64,000 nucleotides of DNA, taken from Clostridiales bacterium (GTDB lineage: Bacteria > Bacillota > Clostridia > Christensenellales > Aristaeellaceae). The notes beneath the pieces are model-generated. The model searched no databases. It was not told the origin of the DNA and saw only the letters and a program-made list of their open reading frames with translations. The stretch lies in assembly GCA_017569285.1 (NCBI GenBank), contig CP069419.1, positions 1,798,001 to 1,862,000 of the forward strand, in the 5' to 3' direction. Within the stretch, counting starts at the first letter, position 1. Each line of letters begins with the position of its first letter. Positions 12,894-58,660 of this stretch are shown piece after piece. The translations under genes and the position numbers were made by a program.

Positions 12894-13628
12894 ATGGCAC
12901 GAACTGCAAGAAAACTTTGTGAAAGCAATATTTATCATGTGATGCTTCGGGCAGTCAACCGTCAGCAGATCTTCCTGGATGAGGAAGACAGGGAGTTTTT
13001 CCTTCATATCCTGGTACAATGCAGGGAGATCAGTCAGTTTTCCGTTTATGCATACTGCCTGATGGGAAACCATGTTCATTTGCTGCTGCAGACAGGGGAG
13101 GAGCCCCTTCCGCAAGTCATGAAAAGAATCGGAACAAGGTTTGTCGTATGGTACAATGCGAAGTACTCCCGGACAGGTCATCTTTTCCAGGATCGCTACA
13201 GAAGTGAGCCTGTACAGGACAACGCCTATTTTCTTACTGTGCTTCGTTATATCCTGTATAATCCGGTGAAAGCGGGTATCTGCAAAGCTGCGGATCAGTA
13301 TCCTTTCAGCAGCGCACGGGATTATTTCAATGGTGGTGGAATTACGGATACTTCCTTTGCGGAAGAAATGACCGGAAAGCAGGCGCTGCTGGATTTCCTG
13401 AAAATGCCGTCAGATGATGCTTGCATGGATGAAACACCTTCAAGATTGAATGAGAGGGATGCGAAGGATATTATTCTGGAGACTGCCGGCGGGAAAGACA
13501 TGGCTGACTGCCAGCGTATAATCGCAAGCCATCCGGATCATTATGTGCCGATCCTCCGGAAATCCGGATTATCGATACGCCAGATCAGCCGCTTAACAGG
13601 GTTAAGTATCGGGATCGTCAGAAAATAG
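12894..13628 (+). CDS. REP-associated tyrosine transposase (RAYT, Y1/IS200-like fold)
   Basis: This single-strand DNA HUH nuclease family nicks at REP-type hairpins. The HUH motif is H60-V61-H62 in GNHVHLLL. The candidate catalytic tyrosine lies in RYILYNP (about 118-124), followed by the typical PVKAGI. The protein has 244 residues and ends with a helix-turn-helix-like segment (about 220-244). It is intact and is flanked by palindromes with the core GGGGACGGTCC, the usual RAYT/REP arrangement. Base composition is clearly more AT-rich than in glyS, which suggests horizontal origin. RAYTs are generally domesticated and do not move as classical insertion sequences. Confidence 0.92.
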   Translation: MARTARKLCESNIYHVMLRAVNRQQIFLDEEDREFFLHILVQCREISQFSVYAYCLMGNHVHLLLQTGEEPLPQVMKRIGTRFVVWYNAKYSRTGHLFQDRYRSEPVQDNAYFLTVLRYILYNPVKAGICKAADQYPFSSARDYFNGGGITDTSFAEEMTGKQALLDFLKMPSDDACMDETPSRLNERDAKDIILETAGGKDMADCQRIIASHPDHYVPILRKSGLSIRQISRLTGLSIGIVRK

Positions 13629-35243: not shown

Positions 35244-37730
35244 ATGATTGCTGAAAGAACCATGCGGGTGCTGGAGTTTACCCGGATCCGCGAAATCCTG
35301 GCGGAGGGTGCACTGACGGAAAGCGGCGCGGAGCTGTGCCGCGCCCTCGTGCCGTATGACGAACTGCCGCAGGCGGAAAACGCCCTGGCGGAAACCGAAG
35401 AGGCCGCGGTGGTGCTGCAATACGTCGGCGGCCACCCGATGGCGCCGTTCCCGGATATCCGCCCGGCACTGTCCGTGTGCGCGAAGGGCGGAACGCTGTC
35501 CGCCGGTATGCTGCTGAGCGTAGCGGAAACGCTGCGGGCTTCCCGCACCGCGCGGGACGCGCTGGTGACTGACCGGGAGAATACCCCCATCCTGAAGCAG
35601 AAAGCCGAGGGGCTGTTCATCGCGCGCAACCTGGAAAAGGATATTACGGACGCGATCCTGTCCGAGGATGAGATCGCGGACCGCGCGAGCTCCGAGCTGA
35701 TGAATATCCGCCGCCACCTGCGCGGCGCCCAGGACCGGATCAAGGACAAGCTGAACCAGATGATCCGCTCCGCCGCGATGCAGAAATACCTGCAGGATCC
35801 GATCATCACCATGCGGGGCGACCGGTATGTACTGCCGGTGAAGGCGGAATACCGGGCGAACGTGCCCGGCCTGGTACACGACCAGTCGTCCTCCGGGGCC
35901 ACGGTGTTTGTGGAACCCATGGCTGCGGTGGAAATGGGCAACGAGCTGAAGCAGTGGGAGCTGAAGGAACAGCAGGAAATCGCGCGGATCCTGGCGGCGC
36001 TGAGCGCGCAGGTCGCGCCCTATGCTGATTCGCTGGCGGAAACCGTATCGCTGCTGTCCGAGCTGGACTTCATTTTCGCCAAAGGCCTGCTGAGCCGCCG
36101 GTGGATGTGTGTTTCCCCGAAGATGAACAGCCGGGGCTACCTGCACATCGTGCGCGGACGCCATCCGCTGATCGATCCGGAAAAGGTGGTGCCGGAGACC
36201 CTTTGGTTGGGCGAACCTCTGTCGACCGCCGGTGGCGGAAATTCCGACAGAGGTGAGGTCAGCCGAAGCAAGCGAGCTCCGCGGGGCGGAGTCGCGCCGA
36301 CTGAGGCTGCGGATACTCCCGAAGATGAAAAGAACAAGGAAGAAGGCTTCAACACCCTGGTGGTCACCGGTCCGAACACCGGCGGCAAAACCGTTACGCT
36401 GAAAACCGTTGGCCTGTTCACCCTGATGGCCCAGGCCGGGCTGCAGGTGCCGGCGGACCCGGGCACCGAGCTGGCGGTATTCGAGCAGGTGTTCGCGGAC
36501 ATCGGCGATGAGCAGAGCATCGAGCAGAGCCTGTCCACCTTCTCCGGCCACATGACGAACATCGTGAAGATCATGCGCGAGGTGACCCCGCGGGACCTGG
36601 TGCTGTTTGATGAGCTGGGCGCCGGAACGGACCCGACCGAGGGCGCGGCGCTGGCGCAGAGCATCCTGACCCGGCTGCTGCACATCGGGGTGCGCACCAT
36701 CGCGACCACGCACTACAGCGAGCTGAAGGTGTTCGCGCTGACCACCAAGGGCGTGGAGAACGCCTCCGTGGAATTCGACGTGGAAACCCTGCGGCCGACG
36801 TACCGGCTGTCCATCGGCGTACCGGGCAAGAGCAACGCCTTTGAGATCAGCCGCCGGCTGGGACTGCCGGAAAACCTGATCGACGCGGCGAAGAAGCTGC
36901 TCAGCGGCGACGCGGTACGTTTTGAGGACGTGATCGCCAACGCGGAATACCACCGGCAGATCGCGGAGCGCGAGCGCCAGATTGCCCAGGAGGCCGGAAA
37001 GGAAACGATCCGCTTGCGGGATGAGGCCGAGGCGCTGCGCCGTGAGATGGAGGCGAAGCGCACGGAAACCCTGCGCAAGACCCGCGAGGAAGCGAAGCGG
37101 ATCCTGGAGCAAGCCCGCCGCGAGAGCGACAGCATTATCTCCGAACTGAAGAAGATGAAGAAGAACGCCGCGGAGGGCGGCCTGTCCGCCGCGGAGCTGC
37201 AGCGGAAGCTGGACCGCGGCATCGACGACCTGTCCGAGGGCATCCGCCCGGCGGACGACGACGGCAACGAGGCGCCGAAGACCGTGAAGGCGGGCGACCG
37301 CGTGCGCATCCTGACGCTGGGGGCGGAGGGCGTGGTGCTCGCGCCGCCGGACGAAAAGGGCGAGGTTTCCCTGCAGGCCGGCGCGATGAAGTTCAAGGCG
37401 CCGCTTTCCCAGCTGCGCATGGCGCAGGAAGCGCCGAAAAAGGAGCGCACCACCGTGAAGGCGAAAACCGGCATGATGACCCGTACGGTTTCCTCCGAGT
37501 GCGACGTGCGCGGCATGAGCCTGGAGGAAGCGCTGACCGCAGTGGGCCTGTACCTGGACGAGGCGGTGCTGGCCGGGCTGAACGAGGTGTACGTCATCCA
37601 CGGCAAGGGCACCGGCGTGCTGCGCGCGGGCATCCAGCAGGACCTGCGCAAGAACCGCCATGTGAAGAGCTTCCGCCGGGGCATGTACGGTGAGGGCGAG
37701 GACGGAGTGACCGTGGTCACGCTGAAGTGA
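35244..37730 (+). CDS. mutS2: Endonuclease MutS2 with an in-frame repeat insertion
   Basis: MutS2 is an ATPase that acts in recombination control and rescue of collided ribosomes. It has 828 residues: an N-terminal core, an ABC-type ATPase with Walker A GPNTGGKT (376-383) and Walker B LVLFDELGAGTDPTEG, a coiled coil (about 560-650), a KOW-like segment and a C-terminal Smr nuclease domain (CDVRGMSLEEAL, HGKGTGVLR). About 43 residues (from GEPLST to NKEE, about 325-367) separate the LWLGE strand from FNTLVVTGP, where related proteins have none. This insert is encoded by the 104-bp repeat at 36209-36312. The frame is intact, so a functional protein is likely. Confidence 0.95.
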   Translation: MIAERTMRVLEFTRIREILAEGALTESGAELCRALVPYDELPQAENALAETEEAAVVLQYVGGHPMAPFPDIRPALSVCAKGGTLSAGMLLSVAETLRASRTARDALVTDRENTPILKQKAEGLFIARNLEKDITDAILSEDEIADRASSELMNIRRHLRGAQDRIKDKLNQMIRSAAMQKYLQDPIITMRGDRYVLPVKAEYRANVPGLVHDQSSSGATVFVEPMAAVEMGNELKQWELKEQQEIARILAALSAQVAPYADSLAETVSLLSELDFIFAKGLLSRRWMCVSPKMNSRGYLHIVRGRHPLIDPEKVVPETLWLGEPLSTAGGGNSDRGEVSRSKRAPRGGVAPTEAADTPEDEKNKEEGFNTLVVTGPNTGGKTVTLKTVGLFTLMAQAGLQVPADPGTELAVFEQVFADIGDEQSIEQSLSTFSGHMTNIVKIMREVTPRDLVLFDELGAGTDPTEGAALAQSILTRLLHIGVRTIATTHYSELKVFALTTKGVENASVEFDVETLRPTYRLSIGVPGKSNAFEISRRLGLPENLIDAAKKLLSGDAVRFEDVIANAEYHRQIAERERQIAQEAGKETIRLRDEAEALRREMEAKRTETLRKTREEAKRILEQARRESDSIISELKKMKKNAAEGGLSAAELQRKLDRGIDDLSEGIRPADDDGNEAPKTVKAGDRVRILTLGAEGVVLAPPDEKGEVSLQAGAMKFKAPLSQLRMAQEAPKKERTTVKAKTGMMTRTVSSECDVRGMSLEEALTAVGLYLDEAVLAGLNEVYVIHGKGTGVLRAGIQQDLRKNRHVKSFRRGMYGEGEDGVTVVTLK
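36209..36312 (-). repeat. 104-bp two-hairpin repeat, copy C, inside mutS2
   Basis: Read on the minus strand it starts CCGCAGCCTCAGTCGG and ends GGTTCGCCC. It holds hairpin 1 (CTCCGC-CCC-GCGGAG) and hairpin 2 (ACCTCTGTCG paired with CGACAGAGGT, enclosing CCGCC-ACC-GGCGG). About 78 of 104 positions match the copy at 52450-52553 without gaps. It contributes an in-frame insert to MutS2. Confidence 0.85.
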
Positions 37731-40533: not shown

Positions 40534-40638
40534 CCGCAATCTCAATGGTCGCAACTGTCCACAGGACAGCTTGCTCCCTTTCGATTGATCTCAGCACCAA
40601 TGAATATTCCGCCACTGGCGGTCATTGGTGCTTCGTCC
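40534..40638 (+). repeat. 104-bp two-hairpin repeat, copy A, aroK to kinase-gene interval
   Basis: It begins CCGCAATCTCAATGG and ends GTGCTTCGTCC. Hairpin 1 is CTGTCC-ACA-GGACAG. Hairpin 2 is an 11-bp perfect outer stem (AGCACCAATGA / TCATTGGTGCT) enclosing CCGCC-ACT-GGCGG. It is about 70% identical by eye to the copy at 52450-52553, with one extra base. Stem differences between copies are compensatory. Confidence 0.85.
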
Positions 40639-52449: not shown

Positions 52450-52553
52450 CCGCAGCCTCAATCGGTGCGACTGTCCACCGGACAGATCGCTTGTTTCGGC
52501 TGAATTCACATCCGTCGAGATTCCTGCCACAGGCAGTCGATGGATGTTCATCC
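52450..52553 (+). repeat. 104-bp two-hairpin repeat, copy B, permease to binding-protein interval
   Basis: It begins CCGCAGCCTCAATCGG and ends ATGTTCATCC. Hairpin 1 is CTGTCC-ACC-GGACAG. Hairpin 2 has an 11-bp outer stem (ACATCCGTCGA / TCGATGGATGT, one G-T wobble) enclosing TGCC-ACA-GGCA. Its right end includes the stop codon of the permease gene. It is antisense to the operon and about 75% identical to the mutS2 copy. Confidence 0.85.
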
Positions 52554-58432: not shown

Positions 58433-58660
58433 CGGTTGAGTCCTTCGGGTCTGTGGTTGAAAGCCGATGCCAGTCGCAGGCAAAACGGTCCACGTAATCC
58501 GCTCAAAGCGGCGGGGAGCATGGTGCGGTCTAGATGTAAGTCCGTCCGGGGCATGACCCCGAGAGGCGGGAGTGAGGGCGCGGACAGCGCAGAGCAAACG
58601 TCCGGACGGCGAGTGTGGGGTCAAAAACCAGGTCAGCCGGGGGAATCGCCTATCAACATT
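58433..58660 (+). ncRNA. Large structured RNA, probably raiA-motif class
   Basis: A GC-rich non-coding stretch of about 225 nt starts where the strong promoter predicts transcription. Possible closing stem: GTTGA (58435) with TCAAC (58653). Internal hairpins include CCGCT-CAA-AGCGG (58499-58511) and CGGGG-CATGA-CCCCG (58547-58561), and GGCGA can pair with TCGCC (ends 58650). Purine-rich unpaired segments such as GAGAGGCGGGAGTGAGGG are typical of ornate RNAs. The layout and size recall the Clostridia raiA-motif RNA; this is from memory of the class, not a model search. It is not tmRNA, RNase P or SRP RNA. Confidence 0.6.

Follow-up and report, generated by a model that had tools for sequence, protein, structure and literature searches.

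The window, that is, the whole stretch of 64,000 nucleotides analyzed here (contig CP069419.1 of a Clostridiales bacterium), carries three copies of a two-hairpin repeat, A, B, and C, at the positions reported in the initial annotation. The copies, the genes around them, and two further features of the window are as follows:

12894-13628, plus strand: RAYT-type Y1 transposase gene, with its own REPs (GGGGACGGTCC...) on its flanks, unlike the 104-bp element
35244..37730, plus strand: mutS2 gene with MutS_V, MSSS, and Smr domains, containing copy C
36209..36312, minus strand: copy C, 104 bases; hairpin 1 at approximately 36260-36309, hairpin 2 at approximately 36211-36258
40534..40638, plus strand: copy A, 105 bases; hairpin 1 at approximately 40537-40587, hairpin 2 at approximately 40589-40636; a shikimate kinase gene on one side and an amino-acid kinase family gene on the other
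52450..52553, plus strand: copy B, 104 bases; hairpin 1 at approximately 52453-52502, hairpin 2 at approximately 52504-52551; neighbored by a solute-binding protein gene and a transporter permease gene, each on the minus strand
58440-58645, plus strand: raiA RNA (Rfam RF03072, 172 bits)

The size of approximately 104 bp first given for the repeat is exact for B and C, whereas copy A is one base longer; the ungapped identity of B and C at 78 of 104 positions and the stem letters quoted for the three copies were both correct. Copy A, whose hairpin 2 is of type I with a TC/TC mismatch, is flanked by fragments of another hairpin repeat, called X here, and the permease ORF beside copy B terminates inside the final bases of that copy. 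Copy C lies antisense within mutS2, the frame of which stays open across it, and adds approximately 35 codons (residues approximately 322-356) just ahead of the MutS_V domain (373-553).

The structure of the repeat was hand-written from single-sequence folds of 15 aligned copies. Hairpin 1 consists of the stems P1 (5 bp), P1b (2 bp), P2 (4 bp), and P3 (6 bp), and hairpin 2 of P4 (15 bp) and P5 (5 bp), together 37 pairs. In the 15-copy alignment, 95.5% of 554 cells pair, and two-sided changes are found at 26 of the 37 pairs. The covariation score of these copies is 0.549, compared with 0.178 in shuffles and no more than 0.096 with the partners slid. All five measures exceed the slid controls in the 15 copies, a control that is generous because the structure was drawn from the same 15 sequences, and the observed values were reached by none of 500 shuffles on four measures and by 6 of 500 on the fifth (further pair types). 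Covariation in the stems was tested with both pair counts and shuffles on the 15 copies, and with pair counts in a larger set of 161. The three window copies, folded as DNA on both strands and compared with 200 shuffles, were equaled by 0 of 200 in five folds and by 1 of 200 in the sixth.

The unpaired letters of the repeat are more conserved than its stems, which are variable. In alignment A4 (89 rows), TCAAT is conserved in 84 rows and the TTTC facing it in an internal loop in 86; the triloops are of the form ACH, with the P3 loop being ACH in 84 of the rows. Hairpin 2 contains a 5-base bulge of similar make-up among copies, together with a 2x2 TC/TC mismatch in P4, present in its exact form in 102 of 161 copies and corresponding to a tandem G-A on the opposite strand. 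Judged by eye, the element ends with CGCA on one side and mostly with TTCRYCC or CCC on the other; the terminal inverted repeats of a MITE are absent, as each end sits in its own hairpin and lacks complementarity to the other. In 136 of the 161 copies, which share ancestry, one sense frame stays open, compared with approximately one third in letter shuffles. Covariation at 26 of 37 pairs, as well as the better conservation of unpaired letters, counts in favor of a structured RNA, in which a transcribed element would have its two hairpins under selection and its copies would act in cis or trans.

The repeat of approximately 104 bases has spread through one genus of gut Clostridia. A blastn search of the window's genome (3.27 Mb in two contigs) with copy B as the query gave hits at 15 places with E <= 1.3e-5, copy A not being among them, so the three window copies are not a chance resemblance. 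A covariance model, R1, derived from 15 copies with A, B, and C among them, gave 43 matches in the same genome when the cutoff was E <= 0.01 and 50 when it was E <= 10; several of the weakest belong to a second, related family. With stricter filters, R1 has matches in all 45 genomes of the genus, ranging from 1 to 42 each with a total of 581, and a separate, smaller search with R1 gave 53 matches in one genome. That the repeat forms a family with further copies, as had been proposed, is therefore confirmed by the covariance-model searches. In an order-wide search of 297 genomes, six had a match, namely, all five from the genus and one other; this single match among the 292 genomes outside the genus is weak (E 6.6e-5) and comes from one of 18 other genomes listed from the same taxonomic family. 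The exact hairpin 1 pattern occurs in at least 120 stretches of the named genome collection, and the 80 loci listed by name are all titled "Clostridia" or "Clostridiales bacterium," many of them from ruminants. Viral contigs hold four matches, one of which (L254) shares its flanks with the chromosome of genome G048; one copy searched against named phage and plasmid records gave no match.

For the repeat, no Rfam family reached its gathering score in the window or in seven loci bearing copies, and the best overlap with a copy was HgcC at 21.3 bits (E 0.41, gathering score 50). It had been said beforehand that a match to an Rfam or REP family would make the repeat a known one: the Rfam comparison yielded none at gathering score, and in the REP comparison, which was confined to the REPs beside three RAYT genes of the window's genome, those REPs differ from the element. 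Literature searches, covering few subscription journals, found no published description of this family. It is a real structured family with many copies and without an Rfam match.

Two other repeats of the same surroundings were recorded:

G000:C1 464670, 1009829, 1263348, 1513406, 1871526, and 2658390: second family
L161, L286, L297, L294, and L281: repeat X, made of two hairpins whose stems vary while the TTACC...GAC junctions are conserved

The second family keeps a TCAAT/TTTC-type loop with other hairpins, and some of its members end where a first-family copy starts. By eye, both it and repeat X are built like the element, with loops that are conserved and stems that vary. Within repeat X, the inner hairpin CAAATC-AAA-GATTTG occurs in either of the two hairpins, as if moved as a cassette.

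The repeat appears mobile, as there are a clean empty site, nested and tandem copies, and in-frame insertions. The one clean empty site is that of G048:2312916, filled in G048 and empty in G031; the copy in G048 sits at the end of a second-family repeat. Copy A is absent from the 95% identical genome G015, with a junction that is not clean there. In mutS2, 22 of the 23 orthologous sites listed were judged by eye to be without the element, and among these 23 only genome G042 has it, as several units. Copies inside repeat X include G031:1635699, G031:2254544, and window copy A, tandem copies are spaced 103-104 bp apart, and a general scan for empty sites returned mostly tandem copies. Of the 42 copies in the window's genome, 36 have CC ahead of the conserved GCA, and 40 have CC close to the 3' end. 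A putative target duplication would be at most two bases long (CC), the element's own end carries CC too, and junctions vary by one or two bases, so a 2-base target duplication is not separable from shared CC ends. A T-loop motif, picked after the flanks had been viewed, occurs no more than 30 bases from the 5' end in 7 of 49 copies, three of these seven being in one array beside tRNA-Ala, compared with 1 of 49 at the 3' end and 21 of 1274 background windows (p 1.5e-5).

The relation of the repeat to genes is not constant, which speaks against a structured RNA: copies are antisense in mutS2, in sense in a phage gene, near tRNA and rRNA genes, or in tandem. Among 42 copies of the window's genome, one (mutS2) is confirmed to lie in a gene. 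Eight copies have crossing frames of at least 200 codons and seven only shorter ones; among the eight, which were read by eye, only mutS2 was convincing, and in-frame insertion appears unlikely as a general habit. The phage gene (L252 9134-9952) has a lysin-like PG_binding_1 domain and carries the element in frame and in sense, on a viral contig that has sheath, baseplate, and portal genes; another contig, L253, matches it with 100% identity for 7662 bases. At another locus (L031, approximately 980-1300), the 3' end of a tRNA-Met and its terminator look duplicated directly after an element copy. Locus L128 (G000:C1 463000-466500), where an rRNA operon ends in a 5S rRNA gene, has element copies and a second-family repeat just beyond that gene. 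An intrinsic terminator was rejected as an identity of the element, since, of the 42 copies of the window's genome, 39 have at most 1-3 consecutive T at the 3' end and the other three have 4-5.

The spectrum of pair types was counted in 161 copies, obtained from 224 aligned matches (alignments A3-A5) by retaining the 162 distinct rows in which no more than one pair was gapped and dropping one with fewer than 30 pairs. Four pairs, the second of P1b and the first, third, and fourth of P4, were set aside after a first look. The remaining 33 pairs comprise 5313 cells, not independent because the copies are related, of which 5207 are Watson-Crick, 37 G-U, 35 A-C, and 34 other combinations. This near equality of G-U and A-C is what complementarity of DNA predicts and not what RNA pairing does, and a covariance-model alignment is in our judgment, if anything, biased toward G-U over A-C. 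Over all 37 pairs, the counts are 5454 Watson-Crick, 115 G-U, 37 A-C, and 351 other in 5957 cells; the excess of G-U here is due to the second P1b pair (G-T 59, A-C 0) and the outermost P4 pair (G-T 19, A-C 0). These two pairs are in favor of a structured RNA, and one strand may matter at them. As a control, 24 tRNA genes gave 476 Watson-Crick, 31 G-U, and 0 A-C of 507, in a set for which ARAGORN itself requires pairing.

Change at shared sites was followed in two genome pairs, G031/G048 and G000/G015, with flanks mostly 94-99% identical and matching flank adding up to 250 bases or more, giving nine sites. The comparisons of 1513287, 1513406, and 464670 with one G015 copy were left out as truncated or second-family copies. 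The G031/G048 candidate 1941009/2593797, which lies in an inverted arrangement, is not among the nine either. Six of the nine sites are near-identical (four with no difference, one with 1, and one with 2, giving 3 differences over 638 positions), a change smaller than the flanks suggest, which counts in favor of a structured RNA. The other three show block replacement with 18, 11, and 37 differences. In G000:2278821 compared with G015, 18 of 107 element positions differ between flanks that are 96.7% and 96.8% identical over 600 bp each. The block comprises hairpin 1 and the left arm of P4, with the right P4 arm unchanged and three mismatched P4 pairs left in G015, and it exceeds the element, as approximately 40 bases of the left flank are changed too. 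In G031:2956448 compared with G048, the tip of hairpin 1 (P3) is exchanged together with a few other bases, and in G000:2334028 compared with G015, 37 of 108 positions differ across the entire element and approximately 11 flank bases differ as well; the upstream match is short at 2334028 and 2956448 (73 and 77 bases). The exchanged versions are present elsewhere as exact matches of 30, 43, and 72 bases, and the G048 version has exact counterparts of 54-72 bases among copies of other genomes; no complete donor of the G015 tract was present in the sequence searched.

Among the 161 copies, the stem modules are weakly linked, with an excess mutual information of 1-21% of the maximum, and the two parts of P4 reach 37%; linkage exceeds that of shuffles in most pairs of modules. 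Four gametes are seen in 20 of 21 module pairs, a result that recurrent change could give as well. Between the least-different copies, two-sided changes are often isolated base pairs, which exchange of blocks does not by itself produce, and where one pair has changed, 7 changes are two-sided and 20 one-sided. The stem changes are mostly not RNA-like and seem mainly to arise at the DNA level, partly by block exchange. The suggestion of the initial annotation that selection on structure is the simplest reading is not supported, in view of the balance of G-U and A-C at the 33 pairs and the replacement of stem blocks at shared sites.

The repeat is best filed among short palindromic mobile DNA. 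REPINs, in the portion of their description drawn on here, have REP spacings of 71 and 110 bp, with compensatory changes common in the REPIN spacer (PMC3116915). With these elements and with REPs, mobilized by RAYT (TnpA-REP), the repeat shares a similar unit size, dispersal, and hairpins in single-stranded DNA, as far as the same portion describes them (PMC3116915), whereas it has no GTAG tag by eye and no inverted REP pair, is not beside the RAYTs of its own genome, and is present in drafts without a detected Y1. The Rickettsia palindromic elements (RPE) are approximately 150 bp long and can be read in frame within genes, according to part of one account (PMC10969869). The read-through in mutS2 and in the lysin-like phage gene is similar, but one of 42 copies here is in a confirmed gene, and RPE were compared by description, not sequence. 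Mitochondria offer a further comparison, with double-hairpin elements, among them those of fungi, and repetitive hairpin-forming elements. Repetitive hairpin elements of sponge mitochondria have conserved stems and varying loops in the sections of their report used (PMC2800124). These elements are likewise short, hairpin-forming, and potentially mobile, and sometimes have two hairpins or a tandem insertion in those sections (PMC2800124); the present repeat differs in being bacterial and in having conserved loops and variable stems. GTAG/CGTC-tagged palindromic repeats are described in an excerpt as 20-40 bp long with the tag at one end (PMC3733652). They resemble the present repeat in being palindromic and, in the same excerpt, occur in many prokaryotes and in part within genes or other palindromes (PMC3733652), whereas no end tag of that sort was seen by eye here.

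We consider the repeat, with a probability of approximately 0.6, to be a non-autonomous mobile palindromic DNA element of 104-105 bp with two hairpins, whose stems change mostly as DNA and partly by blocks. Copies are gained at new sites, usually beside CC, including the end of an earlier copy or the inside of another hairpin repeat, as differences in presence between close genomes, the clean empty site, and the nested and tandem copies show. Movement would take place as folded single-stranded DNA, and a protein would recognize the unpaired letters, namely, the TCAAT/TTTC loop, the five-base bulge, the ACH triloops, and the TC/TC mismatch. After insertion, point changes are few, whereas a block can be replaced at once, be it the tip of a stem, one hairpin, or the element in full, as at three of the nine shared sites. 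The replacing blocks probably come from other copies via ectopic gene conversion, and template switching between arms may create or repair new stem versions. As the two arms of a hairpin are adjacent and move together, pairing survives, and strong covariation results without need of RNA. The absence of any cellular function beyond persistence and spread is favored.

A tentative extension is that the copies constitute a shared pool of DNA hairpin cassettes: at a fixed locus, stems, hairpins, or entire elements would be exchanged at a higher rate than the flanks mutate, perhaps through an unknown enzyme that works on single strands in folded form.

An element resembling REPINs, moved as a folded single strand by resident Y1 (TnpA-REP) transposases, is unlikely. 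Y1_Tnp matches eight genes of the window's genome, five near-identical IS200 and three of RAYT length, one of the latter in the window, and the hairpins, the CC at both ends, and the 2x2 stem mismatch recall the substrates of TnpA-REP/IS200, as far as part of one source describes these (PMC8266576). Copy number is correlated with the RAYT count, as assigned by frame length from Y1 matches (partial rank correlation 0.28, permutation p 0.03), but with all Y1 the partial correlation is 0.15 (p 0.18). R1 at E <= 10 has no match within approximately 1.5 kb of the three RAYTs, where other REPs are found, and one R1 copy lies approximately 1.6 kb from one of them. One copy adjoins an IS200, in an apparently truncated LPXTG-type gene; the ends of IS200 look unrelated to the element. 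A Y1 match was obtained in 28 of the 45 genomes of the genus, and the 17 without are drafts, 54-93% complete; among these, G035, G038, G034, and G012 (drafts 83-93% complete) have 30, 20, 11, and 8 copies, respectively. A RAYT or an IS200 as a proven mobilizer is unsupported given the different REPs, the IS200 ends that look unrelated, and the genomes without a Y1 match, and no enzyme is named as the mobilizer.

Template switching within the element alone, by which one arm is copied from the other and compensation arises without selection or exchange, is described for RNA genes in the part of the literature used (PMC8794818) and is quite improbable as the sole cause here. Mismatch types that are symmetrical and rare at 33 of 37 pairs, as well as the isolated two-sided changes between near neighbors, agree with it; however, it leaves unexplained the whole-hairpin replacement, loops and bulges included, at shared sites, and copies at shared sites otherwise barely change. 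Inversion of a whole hairpin by template switching was rejected separately, as no inverted triloop is found in the 89 rows of A4. An RNA gene or riboswitch as the main reading is very unlikely, with G-U not commoner than A-C at 33 of 37 pairs, no constant gene relation, and no Rfam family at gathering score.

The repeat is genus-wide and without a known mobilizer, and its copies turn up next to tRNA genes as well as within mutS2 and a phage gene. With 45 genomes, several hundred copies, and close genome pairs, it provides a countable natural test case. Covariation counts as strong evidence of a functional RNA, and this family passes decisively; despite that covariation, the shared sites and the kinds of change seen at 33 of the 37 pairs point to DNA-level causes. 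If the repeat does draw on a shared pool of hairpin cassettes, it would be an instance of textbook RNA-type covariation without any RNA behind it.
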